NCBI GenBank assembly: GCA_019155205.2
Contig: JAHNZQ020000308.1
Span: forward strand, 319,172-383,171
DNA: 64,000 bases
Direction: 5' to 3'
Source: Gracilaria vermiculophylla
Lineage: Eukaryota; Rhodophyta; Florideophyceae; Gracilariales; Gracilariaceae
In this document: piece by piece, positions 30,741 to 62,780 of the stretch
How the letters are laid out: every line of letters begins with the position of its first letter
How positions within the stretch are numbered: the first letter of the stretch is position 1
The notes under the pieces: model-generated
Database searches by the model: none
The model's input: the letters and a program-made list of their open reading frames with translations, nothing else
What the model was told of the DNA's origin: nothing
Made by a program: the position numbers and the translations under genes

Positions 30741-33209
30741 TCATCCATCATCCGCAACCGCCGATTGATTCAAGTACATCTCCACTACCTGTTCCGCCGT
30801 TGTGGCATCCTCTGGCCCCTTATCCTCTCTCACCCGAATAAATCTCGGAAACCTAAGGGCAATACCCTTGTCACCATCAACGCGTCCAATCCCCGCCGTA
30901 TGCTGCGGTGAAATTGACAAATCCGCACACTTCACCTCCCAAACCTGTACGGGCTCGAACCAAACATCCGGCTGCAAAGCACTAATGCTCGGTGTCCGAT
31001 AGTATGACTTTTCCGTCTTACTGATCCGGTTTTGCTCCTCATCATTAAAGAATTTTGCAAACTCCTCCAGCTGCGCCTCCGAGAAGCCCGTACCAATCTT
31101 GCACACCGACTGGTATTCCTCGCTGTCCGCGTCGTAACACGCCAGTAGAAACGCACCGTACGCGCCCGTTCTTTTCCCACGACCTCGATACCCGCCAATA
31201 GGCACTAGATCCAGCGAGTCTCCGCATCCCTCAAGGTAATCTTTCTTCACCTTGAGCCAGTTCTGACTGCGATTTGCCGGCTCATAGGTAGAATTTTCAC
31301 CATCAAGCGCCTTCACCATCAGCCCCTCACAGCCCTCCTTCACGCTGGCATTCAGCAATTCCATAATCTGCTCGGGATTGCTTGAATCGTGGCCCTTTGC
31401 GAACATGAATCTGCCCTCCTGCGGCTCAAATGCGTCGAGCAGAATGCTTCGTCTGTGGTTGAAGGGTTGCTCGATCAGGCTGTTTCCATCAAAGTAGAGC
31501 AAGTCAAATGCAAATATACAGACCTTCACCTTGATGTCCTCAGCATTCACATCCTTTCGTTTGCGACCCTGCAGCTCCTGGAACGGCAAGATCCTCTTTC
31601 GCTCAACATCGTACGCCACCGCCTCAGAGTCAATGATGAATGATGAGCGCTTGTACTTGTCGCGCAAAGCCAAGGGCAACTGGTGCACCAGATCCGGATA
31701 CTTGGGCGTCAAGTTCTCGGCATTCCTACTATAGATTTTCATGGAGCCATCTGAAAGGCGATGAATCTGCGCGCGTTCACCGTCGTACTTGTACTCACAC
31801 GTGAAAGAGGCCTCCGAAAAGCGCTCCAACACCTGAGAGATGGCTTTGGTGGGCTTTGCCAGCATGGGGGAAATCGGAACGCCCGGCAACAACTGGCAGG
31901 CTTCGCTCAAGCGCTCGTCAATTGCACCGAACTGCAACACGTTGGGAACGATGATGTCCCACACCGGCAGTCGACAATACACGGCATTCAACACGGCCGT
32001 GGCGTCTTTGACCTTTTGTTGCACGCGTTCCTCCCGTTCTGACAGGCGATTCTTCTTGGTGCCGTCAGCGTGCAGCAGGAAATCATTGTCGAGGTGTTCA
32101 TTTTGCAGCACGATGGCGGCGGCCAGGGCGGCGATGACGGTCTTGTCTGCCAGGTGGATACGTAGCTTTCCCGACAGCGCACGCGCCAAATACTTGGCCT
32201 CCGTCTTGGAGGCCGCCACGAACATCTTGAGAATGATGGCTTGCTTCTGTTGCTGGGCATTCTTGCCCGACACGGAGGCAATGTAGCGCAACTCGGAAAA
32301 GACCTTGCGCACGGTGAGCGGCGGGGGCGGAAACATTGTGGTTTGCGTGGTCCTCGAAACGAAGGCGACATCGCCCAGGTCGCCGAGCTTGCTGTACGTG
32401 GCCTTGAGGGCGGGCAGCGAACGGCCCGTGACCGAGGACAAGGTCTTGAGCAAAATGGCGTCGCCCACGCCGAGTTCAATGCCGTGGTGCGCGGGGGCCA
32501 GCCTGTTGACACAGAGGTAAATGGTGCGCACCAGGTCGTCCGGCGAGGCGGCTATGACGTCGCGGAACAGGGCGCAGAGCAGCGCCTGGATGTGCAGGCG
32601 GCCGGTGATGGCCTCCACCTTGGTGAAGGCGTCGGCCAGGGCGGCATACGGGACGGGCTTTCCGCGAGGGCACGCGAAAGACGCGGGGGCGGGCTTGGTG
32701 GCGGGCTTGGTGGCGGGCTTGGTGGCGGGGTTGGCGACGGTTTTGGCGGCGGGCTCGGCAGCGGGCTCGGCAGCGGGCTCGGCGGCGGGCTCGGCGGCGG
32801 GCTCGGCGGCGGGCTCGGCAGAGAGGGTTGGCGAGGGGGCGGACGGCGGGCGCGGGCGCTTTTGCGGCGAGGAGCCGGGCGCTTCGGCGCGGCGCTTGAG
32901 CGCGGCGGAGGGCGTGCGCTTCGCCGACGGCGAGGCGGCGGCGCCGCGCGGGCGGAAGAAGGACGTGAGCGTGCGCTGCTTGCGCATGTCTGCGCGGCGG
33001 CGTGGCGGGCGGGGCGGCGACGGGGGGGGCGGCGGGCGCGTGCGCGCGGCGCTTGCGCTTCGCGTCGCGCTGCGGCTCGGCGCACGGCGCGTTTCGGTGC
33101 GCCGCGCACTTTGGCGGGAACGCGAGCCGCGCCTTTGGTGCACGCGGCGCGCGGGTGCCGCCAGAAAGGAAAAATGCTTTTTATTGGCTGTTGGTTGGTG
33201 CGGAGACAA
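30741..33209 (-). CDS. LIG1: ATP-dependent DNA ligase 1
   Basis: Predicted 822-aa replicative ligase that seals Okazaki fragments and repair nicks. Catalytic motif I is 'EYKYDGERAQIH' with adenylated Lys474; the nucleotidyltransferase and OB domains follow to the C-terminus ('KVKKDYLEGCGDSLDLVPIG' is the motif V region). The DNA-binding domain spans about 185-440. A PIP box 'QRTLTSFF' (Q78, L81, F84, F85) directs PCNA binding. Two in-frame ATGs stand out: 33209, giving a 74-residue Arg/Ser-rich leader almost free of acidic residues, and 32987 (Met75), directly before the PIP box. The arrangement suits an organellar long form and a nuclear short form. Residues 130-175 are a Pro/Ala/Glu/Lys repeat. 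The stop lies 53 bp from the Sae2/CtIP stop (convergent). Confidence 0.93.
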   Translation of the reverse strand: MSPHQPTANKKHFSFLAAPARRVHQRRGSRSRQSARRTETRRAPSRSATRSASAARTRPPPPPSPPRPPRRRADMRKQRTLTSFFRPRGAAASPSAKRTPSAALKRRAEAPGSSPQKRPRPPSAPSPTLSAEPAAEPAAEPAAEPAAEPAAEPAAKTVANPATKPATKPATKPAPASFACPRGKPVPYAALADAFTKVEAITGRLHIQALLCALFRDVIAASPDDLVRTIYLCVNRLAPAHHGIELGVGDAILLKTLSSVTGRSLPALKATYSKLGDLGDVAFVSRTTQTTMFPPPPLTVRKVFSELRYIASVSGKNAQQQKQAIILKMFVAASKTEAKYLARALSGKLRIHLADKTVIAALAAAIVLQNEHLDNDFLLHADGTKKNRLSEREERVQQKVKDATAVLNAVYCRLPVWDIIVPNVLQFGAIDERLSEACQLLPGVPISPMLAKPTKAISQVLERFSEASFTCEYKYDGERAQIHRLSDGSMKIYSRNAENLTPKYPDLVHQLPLALRDKYKRSSFIIDSEAVAYDVERKRILPFQELQGRKRKDVNAEDIKVKVCIFAFDLLYFDGNSLIEQPFNHRRSILLDAFEPQEGRFMFAKGHDSSNPEQIMELLNASVKEGCEGLMVKALDGENSTYEPANRSQNWLKVKKDYLEGCGDSLDLVPIGGYRGRGKRTGAYGAFLLACYDADSEEYQSVCKIGTGFSEAQLEEFAKFFNDEEQNRISKTEKSYYRTPSISALQPDVWFEPVQVWEVKCADLSISPQHTAGIGRVDGDKGIALRFPRFIRVREDKGPEDATTAEQVVEMYLNQSAVADDG
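32688..32826 (-). repeat. 12-bp coding repeat in the DNA ligase 1 linker
   Basis: About eleven 4-codon units, mainly AEPA with variants TKPA and ANPA, lie between the PIP box and the DNA-binding domain. The change of charge from Glu to Lys units halfway along is notable. Probably a flexible spacer. Confidence 0.9.
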
Positions 33210-34245
33210 GCAGAAGGAGGCGGTCTGCGCGCTTCGCCCCCAGCAGCCTCCAGCGGCGTGCTGTGAAGAAGAAGCAGGTGAGTACGTGTGCGCGCGCCGG
33301 GCGCCAAGCTACAGGCGACGTCGCGCTTTGAGGTAAAAGCGCCCACGACGACGGCGCCACCTTTCGCAGCCACGCGCCCGCAACAGAGCAGTCGCGTGAA
33401 GGGTCGTCGTCGTGCACTGCTCGTTAATGCGCAGAAAACGCACTTTCTCGGCACCCCAAAAGGCACTCTTCTCTGGCGCCCCTTCTCGCCACCAACGCTG
33501 TTCGCTGCGGCGCGCCAGGCGAGGTTGCTTGCTCCCGAACCGCTCGCCAGCTTGCGCCTACTCTGCGCGTCGCCGGACTCGGCGCAGCAGATGAAGAGCG
33601 CAAAAACAGCGTGCGTCTCGAGATCGTCGCGCGGCCGCGTTGCCACCAATCAACACTGCTGTGTACACGACAAATGGCCTCCTAACACGCCAATGTCACT
33701 GCACAGCTCCAGCAGAACAGGTCGTAACTTATGTTGCGCAGTTCTTCACCCCATTGTTCCTCTTGTACAACTTCACAGAGTGCTGTGCCAAGCAAGCTTT
33801 TCCTTCTTTTCCGTGCACACGTTGTTATTGTACACACCATGAGCCTTTTTGTGCGAGTTGGCAACACTCTTATCGAAAACGTTTCCCAAACACACGCCTC
33901 ATATGCCACACTTGCTTGTCTGTGTTCCCCCGCTCACCACGCCTTTCGGCCGTGGTGCTCCCAGTGCCCCGCAGTCCCGCAGGCGCGCGCCAAAGAGGGG
34001 CAGCGGCAGCATCACGCCGCCCGCACGTGGCCACGTGAAGCACGCAGCTCAGGCGCCACCTTCCGCGCGTGGCCACGTGCGCCACGCAGCTCGGGCGCCA
34101 CCACCCGTGCGCGCGCGATGCCGTGTGTGTGGCGTGGCGCGCGCAGCCAACCGCCGCACCGGTGCGCGTTGAGCCGCGCCGCCCACAGAGCTGCGCCACG
34201 ACGCGCGCCGACCTCCCGCCGCGCCCCCCGCCCACCCGTCACACC
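33210..34245. other. Divergent GC-rich intergenic region between LIG1 and the site-2 protease
   Basis: About 1.04 kb. A reversed CCAAT-type element (ATTGGCTG) lies at 33184-33191, just inside the long LIG1 reading frame and upstream of Met75. No additional gene is supported; open frames here are composition-driven. Confidence 0.5.
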
Positions 34246-52479: not shown

Positions 52480-53245
52480 GTTGGTATTTGTCGGAAGACA
52501 GGGTGAGTACGAGAATGGACGGTTTTGGGGGTTCAAGCCGGCGTCTCGAGTCATATACCGCTACGTCATCATTCTCGCCGTCATTCACAACTTTGCCTTC
52601 GGAATTGCACATTTCCTGTGAGGCTGTAAAGCAGTAAAACGGTGTTTATCGCTCACTACGCTCCAATTTCTAGGCGAGCACTGCGTTCATCCTGTGGAAG
52701 ACGCGCGCGCGGGCGGAGGTACTCTTCACCATAGGTATTTAATGTTCTCTTGAGAGAGGAGACGGCCTAAGGCGATGGCGCAGCGACGTGCCTGCAACGG
52801 GGCGAAGGCACGCCGCCACAAAGCGCGAAAATTTCAAAGCATTCAAACTTTCAAATAAGCCACGCTTCAAACGCGCTGGCGCCTCCTGCACGCGCGCGCT
52901 GGAAACAGCTCTGCCGCTCCCTCGCCCAGCAGTGCGCCAAATCCGTTGCTCGTTCGACGCAGAGACCCTTGGCAGCGCGCTCTCATCCGCGACCAATACC
53001 AGCCCGAGCGCCGCTTCCCTCGCCTCCACTTCGCGTCCTGCGACTCTCCTGCCGCTTCTCGCCCGTCCACCTTTCAATTTTTCGGCTTTGCTTTCAAAAC
53101 ATATCCGCTCAAATCATTCCTTCCCCTTGCTGCCCTTATGCAGCCATCTGTGAGCCGTTGAAGTTGTCCTGGCCTGTCATCGCGTCCCCAGCACATTTTT
53201 TTTCGGTGAAGCACACAAAAGCTGAGGTGAGCATCCGTGTGAGAA
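52480..53245. other. Intergenic region upstream of the TOG protein gene
   Basis: 766 bp. Holds an E2F-like site at 52823-52832 (separate entry). No gene recognised. Confidence 0.5.
52823..52832. promoter_or_regulatory. E2F-like site upstream of the XMAP215/CKAP5 gene
   Basis: GCGCGAAAAT, a perfect reverse match to the E2F core, about 415 bp before the start codon. Confidence 0.45.
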
Positions 53246-56200
53246 ATGGATGCCAACGCAGCTGCGGCACGCGCACAGCAGGATGACATTGTCAAGGCTG
53301 CCGCGAAACTTCCCTACGCCGAACGGATTGTCCACAGGAACTGGCGCGTCAGAGAGGCCGTGTACAGAGAGATAGCGGACAAGTTTGCAGTCGCCGCCGA
53401 AGATGACAAGATCTACTCCGATTCATTTCCCTTTCTCGGAAAGATGGCACGAGATGCCAACGCCGCGGCCCAACTTGCTGCCTTTGAGGCTGTTACAAAG
53501 TATGCCGATACTGCACCCCCGCCGCTCGTGCGAAAGTCTGCAGCCGAAGTTGCCAAAGCCGTCGTTGAAAAGGGTCTTGCCGGCAGACCGCTCAACAAAG
53601 CCAAAGCAATCGACACCGTCGTCATGTTTGTGGGCGCTGATGCGGGCGACTTGGCCATCGATGCCATCGCCAGCGCTGGTTTCAATCACCGAACACCCAA
53701 GGTTGTCGCCTCGGCCGTTGAGGCCATAACCATCGCTTTAGAAACGTATGGAATTCGCGCAGTTCCTGTCAAGGCTATTGTTGCCAAGATTCCGCCGCTG
53801 CTTAACCATTCACAAGAGGCAGTTCGAAACTCTGCGAAGAATCTTGTCATACAGCTTCACCGATGGGCTGGTGATTCTGTGAAGGTGGCCCTCAAGAAAG
53901 CTAAGGAGGTCACTGTGAAAGAAATCGAGGCGGCATGTGCCACTCACACAAAAGCCAATCGACCGCAACCAAAGAAGCTCACTCGTTCCATGCAACAGCG
54001 TGCACGCCGCACAGGTGATGCCGGTGATGGGAGTGATGACGACGATGGCTTTGGTGATTTGCAAGAAGAAGAAGAAGAACCTGAAGCAGAGCTCGAAATA
54101 AATCTCGTTGAAAAGATTGCTGCTATGAAGATTGAAATGGAAGATAATGTGTACAAGGACTGGTACACTGCTGTCGATGGAAAGAAGTGGAAGGCAAGAA
54201 AAGAAGCTCTCGAAGAGGCCGCAAGCGCGATTGGGGACGCTAGACTGGCGTTGGTATCCTACCAAGAAGTGTTTGTGCGAATTAGAAAGATTTTTGCGAA
54301 GGACTCTAATGTCAAGGTTGTGGCGGCCGCCGCAAGATTAGTTTCTGCTATGGCAGGCGGTTTGAAAAAGAGCTTTCCTTCTGGAATAGCTAAATCTCTA
54401 ACAGTTGATCTTTTTGCCAAGCTCAAAGAGAAAAACACAATCGTGACTGATGCGATTTCAAAAGCACTTGATGCCATGCACACGAAGAAGTGTATCCGAA
54501 TTGTCGAGCTTCTGGACGAAATAACTGTAGCGGCAAAGCATAAGACACCTAAGGCAAGATTCGAGCTCTTGTCATGGCTTGGAAGATGTATGAAAAGCGG
54601 AACTGCAGGTGCTGATCTCAAAGGAGCGCCGTTGAAAAGTTTTGGTTCGTTGTTCTTAAAAGCAACAGACGATCCAGCTCCTGAGGTCAGAGATGCTGGT
54701 CTCAATGGACTCGCAGCTCTCCAAGTTCTTGTTGGGGAGAGAAATGTCGCGGCTTTCATCGAAAAGCTAGACAAACCCCGAAAAGAGAAGATCGCGGCTA
54801 TGGTTGCAAAAATTCCGAAGCCATCCAAAGTTGCATCAAGCAAATCGAAGGCGTCTTTGGGCCCTTCAGCAAATACGCGGTCGAAAGCAACAAAGAAGGT
54901 TTCACCGGAAGTAGTGCGGAAATCTGAATCGAAGAACAACACTTCAATTGTGCAAACGCCTGAAGCCAAGTCTGAAACCAAGCCAAAACCAAAAGAGGCA
55001 CAGCTTCTTGAAAGCGATGACGAAGGAGAAATTCCATTCGGACCCCAAGATGCGCTTGGAAAGGCGGATGAAATGTTTGAGGAGTTTGAAGCTGGAAACT
55101 GGAATGTAAAGAGCTTTCGAGCACGTGGTGCTGCCGCTACAGTCATAGGTTCGAAATTGAGTGAAAAGGAGAAGCTTTCAGATGACGAGGTGGCCCTAAT
55201 TCTTGGCCTTCTAAGTTGTGAGCCCGGGTTAGCGGATAGCAACTTTCTTGCAGCCAAACCCAAGCTGGAGCTGTTTGACCTTGTAGCGACAAAGTGTTCC
55301 TCACCACCTCCACGCAAAACTTTGCGCCCATTGCTTCTTCTCGGAATGGAGAAACTTGGCGATATCAAATCGGCAAAGGTCGTCGCATCGACTCTAATTT
55401 CTTTCGCAGAGGCGACCAGCCCGAGATTTTGCACCGAAGTGCTTCTTGATGCGGCCCGCGAAACGAAGAATAGTCGTGCTTTTATTGGTATGCTGAAGCT
55501 GAGCGCCACTTTCGTAGAAGATTTTGGGGTTCCTCCGGTTCCAGAAAAGGCGGTCGCTGCACTTGCTGTCCTTGGGCTTTCAAACGCAGCGCCTGCCGCA
55601 AAGAACTCAGCCGTAGCAATGGCATGTAAATCGGCGGTGAGAATTGGAGCGGAAAAGTTCCGTCATCTCTTAGAAGAGTCCCAAGCGTCGCAGGAGGTTC
55701 TCGAAGCCTTTGATGGTGAGATAAAGAAGTACTCTCAGAAGCCAGAACCTGCGACTCGGAGGAAGCGCTTCGGTGCTCAGTCTGTAGTTGAAATTGAGAG
55801 CAAGGAAACTAGTCCGGGGTCAGAACGTGAGGACGACGAAGAACCGAAGTCTGAATTGGAGCCGGAGCCAGAATTGATACCGGAACCAATATCAGTGCTT
55901 CCTAGTCCTTCTGTTCCAGAACAGAAGGGCAGAGTATCATCTCGAAAGACACCTCACGCAGCGAAGCAAGCCAGAAAGAGAAGTCCAATGGGGCCCAGAG
56001 GTGTCTTGAAAGACAGTCCGGAGGCTTCCGCAAAAATGGTAGCCAATACACCAACACTACCAGCTCAGCGTGTTTCCATTGCCTCACAGTTCGCCCCTGG
56101 CTCGCGAATTTTCCTTGATTTAAAGAACTCAAACTGGAAGAGGAGGCAAGAAGCTCTGGAACATATCATCAGTATTATTCAAGGTGCTAATGACTTTGTG

Positions 56201-59200
56201 AAGCCAAACGTTGGCTCGGAGATAATTCTCGCGATTCGAGCACGACTGAATGACAGCAATCGTAATTTGGCAACTTTGGCTTACTCGGTAGTATGTCGAC
56301 TAGTTCGAGCCATGGGACCGGGAGGCAGTGTACATCTCAAAGTTTTGGCTCCCGTAGTACTGGGTCAGGGTTGCATTGACATTAAGAAGAATGTTCGTGA
56401 AGCAGCCATGACATGCTTGAATACGTTTTATGAAGTCTATGGAATGTCCGCGGTAATTCCACATTCACACCACCCCTTTTCGTCGCTGAACTCAAACGTA
56501 CGGAAAGAGTACCTCGAGTGGCTGGTTCCTCGACTTCAAGGGGAGATTGGGTCCTTCGATCCTAGTCAGGAGGACCTCTCGTGCCTAATTGATCCGTGCT
56601 TGGTTTGTCTGCGTGATCGTGTGGCCGAAGTCAGACACCTTGCAGACTTGGCTTTGGAACAGGTGGTGCGGAGTGTTGGTTTGCAAGTAATTGACAGCAA
56701 AGCCCTATCGCTTACCAAATCAGCTCGTCTTCAGTTGCAGTCTACGCTTGAAAAGTACCGTGGTGCTATTCAAACTGGTCCGAAAGAATCTTCCCAGGCA
56801 TCAAAGCCATCGGTATCAGCTACACCAAGATCTGCACGGGAAAGACCGCGATCTATGGCACTTCCTAGAACTCCAATGAATCGGAGACCCTCTGGAACAA
56901 ATGAAGAATCTACTCCAATGAGCAATATGAGGAGGCGGCGACCTCTAAGCGCACGCATAACTCCTGTCAGTAAGCCCGGAAAGGCGAGTGATGCCCTTCG
57001 TCCAGCCAAGGACTCTTTAATTATGCTTAAACAAAACGATGGAAGAGAAGCTCGAGGGAACAAATTCATGAATAAGAGAATGAAACTTCTAGATGAGCTT
57101 ACGGTGACCGAACCAGCTGGAGAGATTCCTCCCATAATCGGTGAAAGTTTGGAAGACATCGCAGAGGATCTTCCGGAGTGTTTCTCACGTGAGTTAATAG
57201 AGAAATTGACAGCCCCGGCAAACCGGTTTAGAATGCATGTGGAAGCTATTGAAATGGTAGGATCTGAACTTGATAGGAACCCAGACAATTTGGTATACGT
57301 TTCCGATGTGCTCTTTCGATGGGCAGCGTGTCGTATTGAAGACTCAAAGACGCCTCCTACAGTTCTTGTGAAACTTGCCGCATTTGTTTCGAGCATGTGT
57401 GAAATTCTTATATCTTCTGGTCTCAAAATTGGAGAGTACGAAGCAACGGCGTTAATCCCTCCTCTTGCGGAAAAATGTGGTAGTTATAGAGATTCTGTCC
57501 GCGATGCGATGCGGGCTGCGTTGCTTTCTGTTGCCGATATCGTTGAAGAAGATGTGCTTCTCATCTTGTATGCTTCATGTTTAAGACAACCCATGAGTGA
57601 AAGAGCACATAACGAGATATCAGTTGAAATTTGTCAGTTGATAGACAAGCGATGTAATGCAGGGGCTGGACTGCCCCCTGGGGTTCTGGCTGTTATCGGT
57701 CGAGTGGCTGGAGGTGAGGACGATGGAGCTGGCTGTGCGGCCGCAGCATGTTTAGAACGAGCGCATGAACATTTTGGAGATGATTTGTGGTCTTTGGTCG
57801 GTGAACTATCAAATTCAGAAGCGGCTCTTCTTGACGACAGGTTGACGAGTGTCATTAATGGTATGAAACAAGAACTTGGTTCTGTTCATGACGAAGCAGA
57901 GGACCAAGTACCAGCCCCAATTGATGTCCAAGACTCTAATGGTACGGTAGATGTTAATGGTCCTAAGTCTCCGTTCCCATCTGATATAAGAAACGAGGAC
58001 TTTCGACTCTCAGTGGCGCCAGCCCCACCGAGTAGTGTTCTTACTTCGATCAGTGATTCTTTGAACATGAGCACTCCGAGGAGGACAAAAGTTGAATTGC
58101 AAAGAGAAGATGTTCCAGAAACCCCTATGGTGCCCTCAAGGCGCCAAGATGGGGGTATGGTTTCCAGACAATCAAGCAAGCGTGCTCTTGATATTCTTGC
58201 AAGACTTCGTAGCGCTGACCGCGATACACAGCTGTCTGGACTTGCTTCTATATTCGATGATTTGAAGAGGGATTCAGGTCTGATTACTTCTTCAACAGGG
58301 GCGGAAATTCTCCTTCAGCTTTTTCGATGTTTTGATGACACTCTGGATCGGCTTCAACGCCAGAACAGCTTCGACGATGACCCAGCAGTTCTTAAATCGT
58401 TCTTGAAAGGCGTTATCCGTTATTCTCGCGAGCCGAATCTTCTTCGGCAACTGGATCAGTCAACTGTAGAGCTGTTGCTTAGTAATGCGCTCAATGCTAT
58501 GGTGCCTCAGGCTGTGTTCGGCGTTGATGACTGGGACCAAGTGAGACGAGGGGTGAATCTTATGATTGTCAAGGTGCTCGAGTCCTGTGATCAGAATCTT
58601 CTTTTGACTGCGCTTATTAATCTTTTGTTGACCAACATTAGAGCTATTCAACAAGCGGGCCCAGAAAAATCATCGGCGTTGGCGAAATCTTCAATATGTA
58701 TTAAGTCTATTGCGAAAGTTGCGAAACGTGGTTTTGCAAGTTGCCGAGTAAGTGAGCTTCTCCGGGATATTCACATATTTCTCATGGCCAATCCAGTTCG
58801 TCGAGATGGAAACTCTTCTGCCGAAGATCAAACATTTGCAATGAGACTTTTGAAGACTGTTGTAAATGCGATCATAAGTGAAATTGGCTCTGGAATTCGA
58901 GAGAACTTGGAGCTCATTCCGCAACCGGAAAAGTCCCAATTGGTACACTATATTGACATGACTCTACGAGATCATGAAAGCCAAAGCCCCAACGGATTTC
59001 AAGCGCCACCAGAAGCTGCACCACTGCCTGTTCATCAAAATAAGGAATACGAGGGAAATGCATTAGTTGAGGAAGCCCTTTCAAGGATTGTCCCTGCGGC
59101 CAGCTCAGATGAGTCTTTACGATTCTTACAGTCTATTTTACGATCTTATCCAGATGTGGATTTACAATCGCATTTGGAGAAGTGTTCCCTAGAGCTTAAT

Positions 59201-59596
59201 GAATATGTGAGCACTGGACTTCGTCGAATAGAAATGGACTCAAGTTCTCAACCAAGTAGCAGAGAACATGAACGAGAATCAGGTGATGGAACTGTATCTG
59301 GCTCGTCAGGCGGGCAAGAAGATGTGGCCTCAACGCCGGCTAGTAGTGCTGCGGCTTCAAATAGTGCCGGCCAAGTCTATTTGAAACGGTTGCACGAAAT
59401 CCAATTACGATATGGTTTGCAATCCACGTCACGAGTTCAGGAAGATTCTGAGGGTGGAGCAGGATTCAGTGAGAAAGAAAATGACGAGCTAGAGAGAGTT
59501 TCTTCTGCCGAAGAGGCAAAAGGAAAAGCGTATTCCTTACGTGAGCGAATGGCGCGTATTCGAGAAATGCAACTCTCTTCGAAACACGTTGACTAG
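53246..59596 (+). CDS. XMAP215/CKAP5/MOR1 family microtubule polymerase (TOG protein)
   Basis: Predicted 2116-aa single-exon protein that would bind tubulin dimers and speed microtubule growth at plus ends and spindles. Five TOG-like helical arrays are visible: about 1-230 (begins 'LPYAERIVHRNWRVREAVY'), 285-525 ('WKARKEALEEAASAIGDARL'), 601-845 ('MFEEFEAGNWNVKSFRARGA'), 948-1185 ('FLDLKNSNWKRRQEALEHII') and about 1300-1520. The W-x-x-R and 'A..L' signatures are present in the first four. Ser/Lys/Pro-rich basic linkers separate them, and a helical C-terminal domain (about 1640-1990) and acidic/Ser tail end it. Length fits five-TOG members (plant MOR1, CKAP5, about 2000 aa). Confidence 0.9.
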   Translation: MDANAAAARAQQDDIVKAAAKLPYAERIVHRNWRVREAVYREIADKFAVAAEDDKIYSDSFPFLGKMARDANAAAQLAAFEAVTKYADTAPPPLVRKSAAEVAKAVVEKGLAGRPLNKAKAIDTVVMFVGADAGDLAIDAIASAGFNHRTPKVVASAVEAITIALETYGIRAVPVKAIVAKIPPLLNHSQEAVRNSAKNLVIQLHRWAGDSVKVALKKAKEVTVKEIEAACATHTKANRPQPKKLTRSMQQRARRTGDAGDGSDDDDGFGDLQEEEEEPEAELEINLVEKIAAMKIEMEDNVYKDWYTAVDGKKWKARKEALEEAASAIGDARLALVSYQEVFVRIRKIFAKDSNVKVVAAAARLVSAMAGGLKKSFPSGIAKSLTVDLFAKLKEKNTIVTDAISKALDAMHTKKCIRIVELLDEITVAAKHKTPKARFELLSWLGRCMKSGTAGADLKGAPLKSFGSLFLKATDDPAPEVRDAGLNGLAALQVLVGERNVAAFIEKLDKPRKEKIAAMVAKIPKPSKVASSKSKASLGPSANTRSKATKKVSPEVVRKSESKNNTSIVQTPEAKSETKPKPKEAQLLESDDEGEIPFGPQDALGKADEMFEEFEAGNWNVKSFRARGAAATVIGSKLSEKEKLSDDEVALILGLLSCEPGLADSNFLAAKPKLELFDLVATKCSSPPPRKTLRPLLLLGMEKLGDIKSAKVVASTLISFAEATSPRFCTEVLLDAARETKNSRAFIGMLKLSATFVEDFGVPPVPEKAVAALAVLGLSNAAPAAKNSAVAMACKSAVRIGAEKFRHLLEESQASQEVLEAFDGEIKKYSQKPEPATRRKRFGAQSVVEIESKETSPGSEREDDEEPKSELEPEPELIPEPISVLPSPSVPEQKGRVSSRKTPHAAKQARKRSPMGPRGVLKDSPEASAKMVANTPTLPAQRVSIASQFAPGSRIFLDLKNSNWKRRQEALEHIISIIQGANDFVKPNVGSEIILAIRARLNDSNRNLATLAYSVVCRLVRAMGPGGSVHLKVLAPVVLGQGCIDIKKNVREAAMTCLNTFYEVYGMSAVIPHSHHPFSSLNSNVRKEYLEWLVPRLQGEIGSFDPSQEDLSCLIDPCLVCLRDRVAEVRHLADLALEQVVRSVGLQVIDSKALSLTKSARLQLQSTLEKYRGAIQTGPKESSQASKPSVSATPRSARERPRSMALPRTPMNRRPSGTNEESTPMSNMRRRRPLSARITPVSKPGKASDALRPAKDSLIMLKQNDGREARGNKFMNKRMKLLDELTVTEPAGEIPPIIGESLEDIAEDLPECFSRELIEKLTAPANRFRMHVEAIEMVGSELDRNPDNLVYVSDVLFRWAACRIEDSKTPPTVLVKLAAFVSSMCEILISSGLKIGEYEATALIPPLAEKCGSYRDSVRDAMRAALLSVADIVEEDVLLILYASCLRQPMSERAHNEISVEICQLIDKRCNAGAGLPPGVLAVIGRVAGGEDDGAGCAAAACLERAHEHFGDDLWSLVGELSNSEAALLDDRLTSVINGMKQELGSVHDEAEDQVPAPIDVQDSNGTVDVNGPKSPFPSDIRNEDFRLSVAPAPPSSVLTSISDSLNMSTPRRTKVELQREDVPETPMVPSRRQDGGMVSRQSSKRALDILARLRSADRDTQLSGLASIFDDLKRDSGLITSSTGAEILLQLFRCFDDTLDRLQRQNSFDDDPAVLKSFLKGVIRYSREPNLLRQLDQSTVELLLSNALNAMVPQAVFGVDDWDQVRRGVNLMIVKVLESCDQNLLLTALINLLLTNIRAIQQAGPEKSSALAKSSICIKSIAKVAKRGFASCRVSELLRDIHIFLMANPVRRDGNSSAEDQTFAMRLLKTVVNAIISEIGSGIRENLELIPQPEKSQLVHYIDMTLRDHESQSPNGFQAPPEAAPLPVHQNKEYEGNALVEEALSRIVPAASSDESLRFLQSILRSYPDVDLQSHLEKCSLELNEYVSTGLRRIEMDSSSQPSSREHERESGDGTVSGSSGGQEDVASTPASSAAASNSAGQVYLKRLHEIQLRYGLQSTSRVQEDSEGGAGFSEKENDELERVSSAEEAKGKAYSLRERMARIREMQLSSKHVD

Positions 59597-60053
59597 CTAG
59601 AAAGACCTCGGGAGTAGATTTAGGCAAAACGCGCAAATAGTGTAGCACAGCTCTGTTGTTCATACTTGTAAAGGTAACCAGACGAACCCGGCATATGATG
59701 AGGCATCCATCTACAGATTGCTACTCTGAAAGTTTATCGGTGTGCTTCTTTGCGATGCATCCTTGAAACTGTTTGGTTTTACGTGTCTATCTCAGCGACA
59801 TTCGATTCGACTTGCCAGATTTGACAGAGAAATAAGAGAAAAATTCGCATGTTTGTGAGCTATTGTGCTCGAGAACTCACTCCGTTCCGTGTATCACTTG
59901 TTACGGCGTTCATTTGCTTTTCATTTTTGCGCTCGCTTATTTTACAGGGGAATTGAGTCGTGTGGGTGGCAGCGTTGTCCTTGACTTCCGCCGCATTCTT
60001 CAAAGATATCGTGATGAAATGCACCGCTAGATGGCAGGTAGACCGATGAGACT
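59597..60053. other. Intergenic region
   Basis: 457 bp between two same-strand genes. A weak E2F-like TTTTTGCGC lies near 59923-59932; nothing else recognised. Confidence 0.4.
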
Positions 60054-61109
60054 GTGAAGCATACTCTAAGAAACATGATCCGAAGATCAAATCGAGTTTC
60101 TGAAACGAAAGACTTTTTACCAAGGGACGAAAATGAACAACAAGAAAGGCTTCGAGAGGAGGCGGAAAGAGTTGTGAGTGCGCGCGGCTGGGCATCGATT
60201 CAAGAAGAGCTAGGGCGTCCTGCGCTTGAGGGCCATGGCAGCCCAATACTCCCGTACATTGCCACTTCAATACTTGATCTCAATGAAGGTGCAACTTTCG
60301 AATCCATCAACCTCAAGGAATTTTGCGCTCACCATGAAGAATCATTGTCATTTCAAGAAGCATGCAGAGCCATGAAGTGCACCACTTTGAAGACTGGTTG
60401 TAGCGCTGTAGACAACATTCTCGGGGGTGGAATATGTGTGAATGGAGGATCGATTCTCGAAATCAGCGGAAAGGCTGGAGTTGGTAAGACACAGTTGGCG
60501 ATGCAAATCGCCTTGATGACTGTTGCACCTTGTGAGCAGGGTGGTCTACAATCCAAATGCATTTACGCGTTCATTGAAGGTCGACTACCGGTCAAACGCA
60601 TGCGAGAGATCGAACACGCGATGTGCACCAAGTTTGGTTTGAAAAGCGGTACATTGCTACATGGGATCGTAGTCGAGGAAGTTCGATCGGCGGATGAATT
60701 GCTGGTGTGGTCTGAAACAAGACTGCCGTATTTACTCAACAAGATTAAGGCACGTGTCGTGGTCATTGACAGTATTGCTGCAGTGTATCGACCAGAGTTT
60801 CAGGACGCTCTTTCTAGAACCCGACATTTGGCGCAGATGAGCGCTGCTTTGAAACGAGCAGTGGCTTTCGTTGAGGGAGTGTGTATTTGTGTGAATCAAG
60901 TCAGCCAGAAAGTCGATGGCGTTGGGTTCAGCAGTATCGTGCCCGCGCTCGGTAGTGTGTGGGGAAACGCGGTGGAGACAAGAATGTTTTTGACAAGAAG
61001 TGGCTCTCGTCGATTCGCTAGGATCCTTGATTCGGCACATTTAGTTGACACAGAAGAAGAAGAGTATCACATATGTGCGGAGGGAGTTGTATCCACAGAA
61101 GAAGGTTAA
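60054..61109 (+). CDS. XRCC3: RAD51 paralogue, XRCC3-like
   Basis: Predicted 351-aa RecA-fold ATPase for homologous recombination. Walker A is 'GKAGVGKTQ' (residues about 139-147) after 'GCSAVDNILGGGI'; Walker B lies in 'ARVVVIDSIAAVYRPEF' (about 234-250). The C-terminal 'VPALGSVWGNAVETRMFLTR' corresponds to the XRCC3-type 'PALGxxWxN' stretch, and the IDS-A-x-x-R-x-E-F pattern also favours XRCC3 over RAD51B/D/XRCC2. The N-terminus is charged and lacks a clear helix-hairpin-helix. XRCC3 pairs with RAD51C in the CX3 complex. Single open frame. Paralogue identity is inferred from motifs only. Confidence 0.72.
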   Translation: MKHTLRNMIRRSNRVSETKDFLPRDENEQQERLREEAERVVSARGWASIQEELGRPALEGHGSPILPYIATSILDLNEGATFESINLKEFCAHHEESLSFQEACRAMKCTTLKTGCSAVDNILGGGICVNGGSILEISGKAGVGKTQLAMQIALMTVAPCEQGGLQSKCIYAFIEGRLPVKRMREIEHAMCTKFGLKSGTLLHGIVVEEVRSADELLVWSETRLPYLLNKIKARVVVIDSIAAVYRPEFQDALSRTRHLAQMSAALKRAVAFVEGVCICVNQVSQKVDGVGFSSIVPALGSVWGNAVETRMFLTRSGSRRFARILDSAHLVDTEEEEYHICAEGVVSTEEG

Positions 61110-61218: not shown

Positions 61219-61947
61219 CTATTCTTCGCCACCCGAAGAGAAGGACTTCAGTGCGCCTTCAATGCGCTTCTTTGCCCATGCTGTAAAGGGCAAGGCCATG
61301 TCCGGTTCTACAAGTTTGATTGGGCGCTCTTCAAGATCCTTCGCAGTTACTTTGTACCCAAACTCCAGGTTGGTCTGAGATTTTTTCAACTGCGGATACA
61401 TTCGTAATGCATTCTGAAGAAAACGGTCTTTATCCTTTCCATAGACAGTCTGCGCAATACCCTTATCCAACGCATTCTCGTACATGCCCTTCGCAAACCC
61501 GCCCTTCAGTGCATCAACCAGAGATTTGGAACGATCATCACCTTTCACAGCTCCAAGAGGATACCATAGTTTTGCACGCTGCGAACGGACGAACACAGTG
61601 AATACGGGAGTACCGTCTTCTGGAAGAGAGGGCGTGGAATCTGGTCTGCGAGACTGTTGCAAGGGTTGTCGGTATCTTGGCCCTTTTCTCATGCACGGCG
61701 CTCGGCGAGATTGTGAAGTTGAGGTTGTACTGCGGTTGGGGTGATGAACGGGTGTCACAGGACAGCGGAAGTTATTTGCCTGAAGAGGTAGAAATGCCGG
61801 TCGAAATGATACAGCAGTCGTAAATGCTGGTCCTTCTGAATGCGCCATTGCGGTACGATTCCCAGGAGTTGTGCCTAGCTTCGAGCCTTGCGACTTATCG
61901 ACGGGATAGTTTTTAGCCACGAACTTGAATGGAGTTCGCTTTAACAT
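61219..61947 (-). CDS. Conserved plastid protein, HHL1-like
   Basis: Predicted 242-aa protein. The conserved part (about residues 113-235) reads 'PVFTVFVRSQRAKLWYPLGA', then 'FAKGMYENALDKGIAQTVYG', 'MYPQLKKSQTNLEFGYKV' and 'LPFTAWAKKRIEGALKSF'. From memory this resembles the plant/cyanobacterial family that includes HHL1, linked to photosystem II under high light; the match is by general pattern and should be treated as tentative. The N-terminus is Ser/Arg/Pro-rich without acidic runs. Met34 (ATG at 61848, MAHSEGPAF...) is a more plausible transit-peptide start than 61947. It converges on XRCC3, with 109 bp between stops. Confidence 0.6.
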   Translation of the reverse strand: MLKRTPFKFVAKNYPVDKSQGSKLGTTPGNRTAMAHSEGPAFTTAVSFRPAFLPLQANNFRCPVTPVHHPNRSTTSTSQSRRAPCMRKGPRYRQPLQQSRRPDSTPSLPEDGTPVFTVFVRSQRAKLWYPLGAVKGDDRSKSLVDALKGGFAKGMYENALDKGIAQTVYGKDKDRFLQNALRMYPQLKKSQTNLEFGYKVTAKDLEERPIKLVEPDMALPFTAWAKKRIEGALKSFSSGGEE

Positions 61948-62253
61948 AACCTCGGTGTGAGTATCAAGCCGGTATACAAGCGTGATTGCGGCTCTTGCGG
62001 TCTGCTACAGACGATGAAGTCAATTACAACGATGGGACTACGAGATTGAATTCCGAGCCTTCGATTCTTGGAATGGTACACGAACGGCTGATAGATCCCG
62101 ACAATGTGCGGGGACGATAAATAGCTGTGCGACAAGTGGCGAACACGAAGTGGGCAGGAGACGTAAGAGGTGCACACGCGTCTGATTAGGTACCGTGCAG
62201 ACAGATGGGTTTAGATAGCGTGCTAACAGCCCCCCCTCAATCATCCAGCGGTA
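61948..62253. other. Intergenic region upstream of tRNA-Tyr
   Basis: 306 bp without a recognisable gene; includes the upstream region of the HHL1-like gene (minus) and the 5' flank of the tRNA. Confidence 0.5.
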
Positions 62254-62353
62254 CTCTCGGTAGCTCAGTTGGTTTGTACACAACTCAGAGCATTTGACTG
62301 TAGTGGTTCACACACCCATCAAAATGTCCTTAGTTCGATTCTAAGTCGGGAGA
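62254..62353 (+). tRNA. tRNA-Tyr (GUA) with an anticodon-loop intron and a D-loop intron
   Basis: The 100-nt gene folds as a full cloverleaf once two insertions are removed. Acceptor stem 62254-62260 pairs with 62346-62352 (two G-U pairs), discriminator A62353; D-stem GCTC 62263-62266 with GAGC 62288-62291; anticodon stem 62293-62297 with 62319-62323; T-arm 62329-62345 with loop TTCGATT. Anticodon GTA is at 62300-62302. The A-box matches TRGCNNARNNGG and the B-box GTTCGANTC. Intron 1, 62304-62317 (14 nt), sits after position 37 as in all eukaryotic tRNA-Tyr. Intron 2, 62274-62286 (13 nt), sits after position 20: a 3-nt bulge 62285-62287, the 4-bp helix GTTG/CAAC (62268-62271 with 62281-62284) and a 9-nt loop. 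Cutting after the second bulge and loop base leaves the D-loop AGTTGGTA. Mature length is 73 nt before CCA. Confidence 0.9.
62274..62286 (+). other. Ectopic D-loop intron of tRNA-Tyr (13 nt)
   Basis: Inserted between tRNA positions 20 and 21. Boundaries come from two independent arguments, the canonical D-loop length and a bulge-helix-loop endonuclease motif, and both give the same nucleotides. Not experimentally shown. Confidence 0.78.
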
Positions 62354-62363
62354 TTCCGCTTCC

Positions 62364-62370
62364 TTTTTTT
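62364..62370 (+). terminator. Pol III terminator of tRNA-Tyr
   Basis: Run of seven T, ten bases after the discriminator base of tRNA-Tyr, on the coding strand. Confidence 0.85.
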
Positions 62371-62780
62371 CTCTTCCTCCCAAAATTTTCCCCCGCCCTC
62401 AATCCTCCATCGCTACGACTCCATCCCGGCTCTAACGCCATCCCCGCTCCTACTCCATCCCCGCTCCAACGCCATCCCCGCTTCTACTCCCCCACCGCTC
62501 CCAGGCCTTAGTCGCTCTCAGTCCTTTGCTCTTATCTCAAACGCATCCATTACACCTCCCATCCCCATCCGCGCCCCCATCCTCCCCATCCCCATCCCCA
62601 CCCCTTTGCGCCCCACCTTCCCCTCCCACCCCTCTTCTATCCCTTCCGTCCCCGCCACCACACCCCCCCCCTTCATCCACACCTACACCTACGCCTACAC
62701 CTTTATTCTTCTCTTTCACTCGCAAACGCCTTCCCCGCCCCCACAGCAAAACCCCGCTCGCTTCTCCTTCTCCTCAAACC
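62371..62780. other. Pyrimidine-rich spacer upstream of PCC1
   Basis: 410 bp, almost all C and T with A on +. Includes imperfect repeats of a ~35-bp unit containing 'CCATCCCCGCTC' (62409-62497) and C-runs at 62560-62680. An open frame runs through from 62526 to PCC1 but is low-complexity, so I do not count it as coding. Confidence 0.55.
62409..62497. repeat. Imperfect C-rich tandem repeat
   Basis: About two and a half copies of a ~35-bp unit with 'CTCCATCCCCGCTC' and 'AACGCCATCCCCGCT' blocks, upstream of PCC1. Confidence 0.7.

Follow-up and report, generated by a model that had tools for sequence, protein, structure and literature searches.

How can a nuclear transfer RNA (tRNA) gene with an extra insert in its D-loop give rise to a standard tRNA, and which enzyme would take the insert out? 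The question is raised by a tRNA-Tyr(GUA) gene at 62254..62353 on the plus strand of the window, that is, the whole stretch of 64,000 nucleotides (nt) analysed here, which corresponds to C14:319172-383171 of a 44.8 Mb genome assembly of 27 contigs. Sequence comparison argues strongly that the locus is a working nuclear red-algal tRNA-Tyr gene with two introns, of which the one in the D-loop is in all likelihood cut by the tRNA-splicing endonuclease at a relaxed bulge-helix-loop site.

The gene consists of three exons and two introns, all on the plus strand. Exon 1 (62254..62273; positions 1-20), delimited by its sequence and by register scoring, holds the 5' acceptor strand, U8A9, the 5' D-stem and AGTTGGT. 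The D-loop intron of 13 nt follows at position 20/21 (62274..62286), defined by copy comparison, register scoring and ARAGORN tests, and then exon 2 (62287..62303), placed from the sequence and ARAGORN, which runs from A21 through the 3' D-stem and the 5' anticodon stem into the anticodon loop as far as G37, with the anticodon GTA at 62300-62302. A canonical anticodon intron of 14 nt at position 37/38 (62304..62317), recognised from the sequence, copy comparison and ARAGORN, separates exon 2 from exon 3 (62318..62353), which as read from the sequence comprises A38, the 3' anticodon stem, the T-arm, the 3' acceptor strand and the discriminator A73. Within this second intron, ACA at 62312-62314 is able to pair with UGU at 62299-62301, as found by hand. 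Joining 62254-62273, 62287-62303 and 62318-62353 yields a 73-nt tRNA-Tyr in which every stem is paired, G-U being allowed (acceptor CTCTCGG/TCGGGAG, D GCTC/GAGC, anticodon TTTGA/TCAAA, T CTTAG/CTAAG), and the coordinates, letters and two-intron structure proposed in the initial annotation thus stand on the sequence. The gene has C1-G72 and A73, the features expected of a cytosolic eukaryotic tRNA-Tyr; CCA is not encoded.

The signals for transcription are likewise in place. Both promoter boxes were read from the plus strand against the consensus: the A-box TAGCTCAGTTGG (62261..62272) ends just 5' of the D-loop intron, and the B-box AGTTCGATTCT (62332..62342) lies 3' of the anticodon intron; because both introns sit between the two boxes, neither breaks a promoter element. 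A run of seven T (62364..62370, plus strand), an RNA polymerase III-type terminator, begins at the 11th base past the gene. The two halves of the tRNA stand in their normal order, with no 3' half upstream of the kind that marks a circularly permuted gene.

tRNA finders did not report the gene as it stands in the genome. Rfam returned no tRNA, either in the whole window at its gathering cut-off or on 62150-62450 with E values up to 10, where it gave just three chance matches to long non-coding RNAs. ARAGORN, run on the window with bacterial settings or with introns allowed, called no tRNA anywhere in it. Given the joined exons, the same program calls tRNA-Tyr(GTA), and given the gene with the D insert alone removed, it calls tRNA-Tyr with a 14-nt canonical intron; the unspliced precursor, or the precursor with the anticodon intron alone removed, yields no call. 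It is the D insert that hides the gene, because the ARAGORN calls return once that insert is gone.

A DNA search of the genome, for which the gene was extended by 20 bases at either end, recovered the gene itself and one more locus, on the minus strand at C11:387365-387463. Between these two tRNA-Tyr genes the exons differ at 0 of 73 bases, whereas the D inserts, both 13 nt long, differ at 7 of 13 (Fisher p = 3e-7); the anticodon intron measures 12 nt in the C11 gene and 14 nt in the window gene, and the flanks of the two genes show no clear similarity in alignment. Inside both D inserts the word CACAAC is kept, the CAAC part of which pairs with GUUG in the exon. Identical exons, a diverged insert and a kept CAAC are the pattern to expect of an insert that is discarded and of which nothing but the pairing part is important.

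The device is shared by other tRNA genes. The pattern TRGCTCARNNGGN{5,35}AGAGC matches the genome 12 times and the reversed control 7 times. Five of the 12 matches are tRNA genes, namely the two tRNA-Tyr genes, two for tRNA-Lys(TTT) (C7:326217-326301 and C8:1148682-1148769, both on the minus strand) and one for tRNA-Ile(TAT) (C17:587670-587765, equivalent to L072 1494-1589); the remaining seven have no surrounding tRNA and equal the control's seven in number. The D inserts of the two tRNA-Lys genes are 12 and 15 nt long (TCGGCGCAACTC and TCGGCACAGCGACTC), and their pairing part reads CAAC in one gene and CGAC in the other in the same register, a change from U-A to U-G that keeps the helix. The exons of these two genes differ solely by two acceptor-stem base-pair swaps, both compensated. 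The tRNA-Ile(UAU) gene has a D insert of about 22 nt. In all five D-interrupted genes, ARAGORN assigns the expected isotype to the joined exons, and a standard cloverleaf is thereby restored; of the unspliced precursors, the tRNA-Lys gene on C8 is reported as being of unclear type and the tRNA-Ile gene as Leu(caa). A run of at least four T starts within 24 nt downstream of each of the five; given the local sequence, chance alone would place one within 40 nt with a probability of 0.03 to 0.22 per gene.

Uninterrupted genes with the same D-arm also occur. The intact D-arm TRGCTCARNNGGTAGAGC occurs 17 times in the genome and not once in the control; five of these occurrences are nuclear (Lys(CTT) three times, Thr(AGT) twice), and the other 12 lie on contigs or stretches with organelle-type tRNAs. 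Judged by the two patterns, five of the ten nuclear genes with this D-arm are interrupted. Other D-arm types were surveyed in part: a GCGC-type D-stem pattern matched the genome 23 times and the reversed control 19 times, and by eye none of the strings listed clearly resembled a split D-arm, a negative that falls short of a full test because no match was fetched.

These comparisons bear directly on the alternative that the D insert stays in the mature tRNA as an enlarged D-loop, with the anticodon intron alone being removed. In favour of retention, the insert can form a hairpin atop the D-stem. Yet 7 of the 13 insert positions differ between two genes identical at all 73 exon positions, the tRNA-Lys copies differ in insert length (12 as against 15 nt), and G18, which normally takes part in the contact between D-loop and T-loop, would sit in a helix, unable to make that contact. 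We consider retention very unlikely.

Does the genome encode an intact tRNA-Tyr elsewhere? DNA searches of the genome found no uninterrupted nuclear copy of tRNA-Tyr, tRNA-Lys(UUU) or tRNA-Ile(UAU), and no further Lys(TTT) or Ile(TAT) gene of the interrupted kind. A search of the genome with RF00005 listed 63 matches out of 1559 first-look candidates, weaker tRNAs lying outside this coverage, and no tRNA-Tyr is among the 60 of these 63 that could be named; the remaining three are on contig C6, which by eye carries mitochondrial genes. Twelve of the 63 are nuclear, all of them uninterrupted genes for tRNA-Thr, Lys(CTT), Arg, Asn and Trp; other contigs carry Tyr and Lys(TTT) genes of organelle type. 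Among the observations that would overturn it, the initial annotation had named another tRNA-Tyr gene that is intact; the single further tRNA-Tyr gene found is split likewise. Its expectation that other tRNAs might prove to be split also held: D-loop inserts occur in the second tRNA-Tyr gene, in the two nuclear genes found for tRNA-Lys(UUU) and in one for tRNA-Ile(UAU).

The same searches weigh on a second alternative, namely that the split genes are pseudogenes or relics and that the real tRNA-Tyr gene lies elsewhere or is absent from the assembly. The assembly may be incomplete, which counts in favour of this explanation. Against it, both tRNA-Tyr and both nuclear tRNA-Lys(UUU) genes found are split, the stems are paired, the changes within the tRNA-Lys pair are compensated, T-runs follow all five genes, the DNA searches found no intact nuclear copy, and none of the 60 named RF00005 matches is a tRNA-Tyr. 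Relics of this kind are, in our judgement, very improbable.

If the insert of a working gene is removed, what would mark the cut sites? Cut registers were scored for a helix of 4 base pairs (bp), with the mature D-loop required to be 8-10 nt long, to start with A-R..GG and to end in A. In the window gene, the exon strand GTTG (62268..62271), identified by pair count and register scoring, pairs with the intron strand CAAC (62281..62284), identified by copy comparison and register scoring, and this is the sole register with 4 of 4 pairs; it yields AGTTGGTA as the mature loop. The 3' bulge TCA (62285..62287) adjoins the helix, with a predicted cut after 62286. Both tRNA-Tyr and both tRNA-Lys genes have a unique best register, in which all four pairs form, the mature loop is again AGTTGGTA and the cut falls after U20. 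A bulge-helix-loop is thus found in four of the five genes, including that of the window, and is missing from tRNA-Ile(UAU). Across the five aligned rows, 98.4% of cells are paired, as against 32-52% in slid controls; for the exon-intron helix by itself the figure is 90%, and the two cells left unpaired fall in the last two of the four pairs and, according to the alignment, in the tRNA-Ile row. Unconstrained minimum-energy folds form the exon-intron helix in both tRNA-Tyr genes and in the tRNA-Lys gene on C7.

The motif had been described as a precise one. The register, the GTTG/CAAC helix and the mature loop AGTTGGTA were upheld, and the claim of precision was not: the folds of the tRNA-Tyr genes contain just two further weak pairs inward of the 4-bp helix, and A62267 (A14), which faces the 3-nt bulge TCA, can pair with T62285, a position occupied by C in the second tRNA-Tyr gene. 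The D-loop motif is relaxed and not strict.

The host encodes homologues of three subunits of the splicing endonuclease, Sen2, Sen54 and Sen15; searches with PF01974 and TIGR00324 did not recover Sen34. A Sen2-like gene on C4 matches PF01974 at E 3e-6, just above the cut-off, and the best solved relative of its protein is a Sen2 chain (E 8e-7), with which the Tyr, His and Lys positions are aligned; these are presumably the catalytic residues. A Sen54-like protein encoded on C17 matches PF12928 at E 3e-19 and solved Sen54 at E 4e-20. A Sen15-like protein encoded on C8 matches PF09631 at E 2e-11, above the Pfam cut-off; it is 66% identical to a protein of Agarophyton chilense over 89% of its length, 62% to one of Gracilaria domingensis over 82% and 58% to one of Gracilariopsis chorda over 75%. 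The Sen15 assignment rests on Pfam and on these relatives, because the open reading frame gave no match to solved structures up to E 0.1.

Taken together, these elements suggest a route from gene to tRNA. RNA polymerase III would transcribe tRNA-Tyr from the internal A-box and B-box. In the precursor, the D insert would fold back so that CAAC of the intron pairs with G15-U16-U17-G18 of the exon beside the D-stem, creating a relaxed bulge-helix-loop site. The tRNA-splicing endonuclease, through catalytic Sen2 and Sen34, would then cut after U20 and before A21, the same enzyme would cut the 37/38 intron in the usual way, and a tRNA ligase would join the exons into a standard tRNA-Tyr. The same D-loop device would serve the two nuclear genes for tRNA-Lys(UUU) and, at a less clear site, probably the one for tRNA-Ile(UAU). 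The tRNA-splicing endonuclease is most likely the enzyme that cuts, the helix it would need being present in four of the five inserts and absent from that of tRNA-Ile. Self-splicing by group I or group II introns, which have a ribozyme core of hundreds of bases, is ruled out by D inserts of just 12-22 nt in the five genes.

Several observations weigh against this interpretation. A 4-nt helix forms in 6-7% of shuffled inserts per gene, and because of this the helix alone is modest evidence; the weight is carried by its recurrence and by the contrast between exons and intron. The unconstrained folds of the tRNA-Lys gene on C8 and of the tRNA-Ile gene lack the helix, and "further pair types" are no better than in shuffles (17 as against 16.3; 221/500). 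The tRNA-Ile(UAU) insert reaches at most 2 of 4 pairs in every register tried (loops of 8-10 nt), and the gene has an unusual G37 next to its UAU anticodon; without the helix and with this G37, it is the weakest of the five. ARAGORN calls the unspliced precursor of the tRNA-Lys gene on C7 as Lys(ttt) as well, with its start shifted. A diverged intact tRNA-Tyr could escape a DNA search, and the RF00005 listing is confined to the 63 matches given above from the 1559 candidates. Finally, PF01974 and TIGR00324 each matched the Sen2 gene alone in an exon-by-exon search, in which an intron-split Sen34 gene would be missed; since the search ran in this way, the missing Sen34 match is not evidence of absence.

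Some of these points would suit excision of the D insert by a nuclease other than the Sen endonuclease. The tRNA-Ile insert lacks the usual motif, and the splicing route of the shortest nucleomorph tRNA introns is given as not known in an excerpt of PMC4090602. Four of the five inserts nonetheless present the bulge-helix-loop register used by Sen-type and archaeal enzymes, and the D-arm introns of the red alga Cyanidioschyzon merolae are ascribed to its Sen enzyme in the part of PMC3978253 consulted. Such a nuclease is highly improbable.

That the locus is a tRNA-derived dispersed repeat, an idea prompted by a repeat in this genome with a B-box-like word, is vanishingly unlikely, given that just two Tyr copies were found, with identical exons and flanks without clear similarity, and that model R1, which was built from the five D-interrupted genes themselves, scores such repeats at 13.6 to 18 bits, whereas the five genes reach 83.8 to 96.2 bits and intact tRNAs 46.9 to 63.9. 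The repeat itself is dispersed along contig C1 (L032 about 1492-1570, L036 1492-1570, L039 1442-1520, L040 1441-1520), and L062 looks related; it carries the B-box-like word GGTTCGACTCC, has weak tRNA-model scores and is possibly a tRNA-derived element.

A tRNA-Tyr gene with a D-loop intron has its closest parallel in C. merolae, a hot-spring red alga described here from excerpts of the papers cited. Introns interrupt more than 62% of its nuclear tRNA genes; at least 12 genes contain several, and in three they lie in the D, anticodon and T arms (PMC9602550). Its D-arm introns include one at 12/13 in Ile(UAU) (PMC9602550) and one at 14/15 in Arg(CCT) (PMC3978253), 20/21 serves also as the junction of a permuted gene (PMC3978253), and the intron sites are strict or relaxed bulge-helix-bulges (via PMC3978253, PMC4090602, PMC9602550). 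Sen2, Sen34 and Sen54 were found in that alga and Sen15 was not, and a dimer or trimer was proposed to cut away from 37/38 (PMC3978253, PMC4090602). As in C. merolae with its ectopic and multiple introns (Soma et al. 2007, 2013, via PMC3978253, PMC4090602, PMC9602550), the genes described here are red-algal nuclear tRNA genes with introns outside 37/38, including the D-arm, and several per gene: D-loop introns occur in five genes, and each tRNA-Tyr gene has two introns. There are also differences. The host is a florideophyte related to Gracilaria, four of the five D introns share one register and one helix, and no permuted gene was seen, though none was searched for. A Sen15 homologue is present, in contrast to the lack of a recognisable Sen15 that the excerpts report for C. 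merolae (PMC3978253, PMC4090602).

Further comparisons place the D-loop intron apart from the usual one. The canonical 37/38 intron of eukaryotic tRNA-Tyr accounts for the second intron (14 nt, or 12 nt in the other copy) and not for that in the D-loop. The nucleomorph of Guillardia theta is a red-alga-derived nucleus. Its tRNA genes carry introns in the D arm and the T arm, in some cases two or three to a gene, and their removal was confirmed by reverse transcription polymerase chain reaction (Kawach et al. 2005, via an excerpt of PMC4090602). The likeness lies in D-arm introns and in more than one intron per gene; unlike the genome studied here, that of the nucleomorph is highly reduced, and its inserts are 3 to 24 nt long, many without a defined motif (PMC4090602, same excerpt). 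Archaeal tRNAs, for example in Methanopyrus kandleri (PMC3695527, in part), likewise have a D-loop intron, though archaea have their own enzyme types, in contrast to the eukaryotic Sen-type endonuclease and RNA polymerase III signals of this host. By analogy, the D-loop introns described here would work like those of C. merolae and Guillardia and belong with them as tRNA introns outside the anticodon loop. What is new is a known kind of ectopic tRNA intron in a new lineage, with a Sen15 gene.

In excerpts of several reviews (PMC3978253, PMC4090602, PMC4033280, PMC6379350), introns of eukaryotic tRNAs that lie outside the anticodon loop are considered rare and known mainly from C. merolae and nucleomorphs, and they are linked to an endonuclease that may lack Sen15; one of the reviews (PMC3978253) tabulates a case at 27/28 in a green alga. 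No report of D-loop tRNA introns in a florideophyte was found among the literature matches listed (titles and starts of abstracts, for most searches the first 20), which is not proof of absence from print. A red alga of the seaweed group with D-loop introns in what are apparently its only tRNA-Tyr and tRNA-Lys(UUU) genes, together with a Sen15 gene, allows the idea of an endonuclease without Sen15 to be tested directly, and points to a trait of greater age and wider distribution. Tentatively, and with somewhat less than even confidence, we propose that D-loop tRNA introns are an old red-algal nuclear trait, common to Cyanidiophyceae, florideophytes and the cryptophyte nucleomorph of red-algal origin, and that they are cut by a complete Sen2/34/54/15 enzyme. 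If so, loss of Sen15 would not be what permits ectopic introns, red-algal Sen complexes would be naturally broad in specificity, and such genes would be missed across red-algal annotations, since standard eukaryotic tRNA searches do not look for them. The analysis of noncanonical introns in tRNAscan-SE 2.0 is described for archaeal candidates (PMC8450103, in part), and similar algal genes may for that reason go unannotated; Tyr, Lys(UUU) and Ile(UAU) may be missing from red-algal tRNA annotations on technical grounds.

The identity of the host was read from its genes. A DNA ligase gene in the window (30741-33308, minus strand) is 88% identical to that of Agarophyton chilense and 86% to that of Gracilaria domingensis over 82% of the query; to judge from such similarity, the nucleus belongs to a florideophyte close to Gracilariaceae and not to a relative of Cyanidioschyzon. 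By eye, phycobilisome and red-type rbcL genes lie on the plastid contig C20, which also has several stretches of N (L012, L013, L014). A 316-amino-acid piece of its rbcL matches Vertebrata (Rhodomelaceae) at 96% and Gracilaria at 93-94% among the best 120 of 8000 matches; plastid and nucleus may come from different individuals. On C17, organelle-type tRNAs occupy about 3.02-3.23 Mb of 5.16 Mb in a nuclear contig, two of them matching C20 in isotype and score, and this stretch is presumably a plastid insertion or a misjoin. Further organelle-type tRNAs, partly unlike those of C20, lie on C2 (497 kb) and C19, with a transfer-messenger RNA gene on C2; the assembly probably contains organelle DNA from a different organism.

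Within the window, the neighbours of the tRNA-Tyr gene at 53243-61109 and 61219-62004 encode a TOG-domain (XMAP215-type) protein, a Rad51-family protein and an HHL1-like protein. Between 28000 and 44000, the guanine-plus-cytosine fraction in 4-kb windows is 0.60-0.75, as against 0.35-0.52 elsewhere in the window, and long overlapping open frames occur there on both strands.
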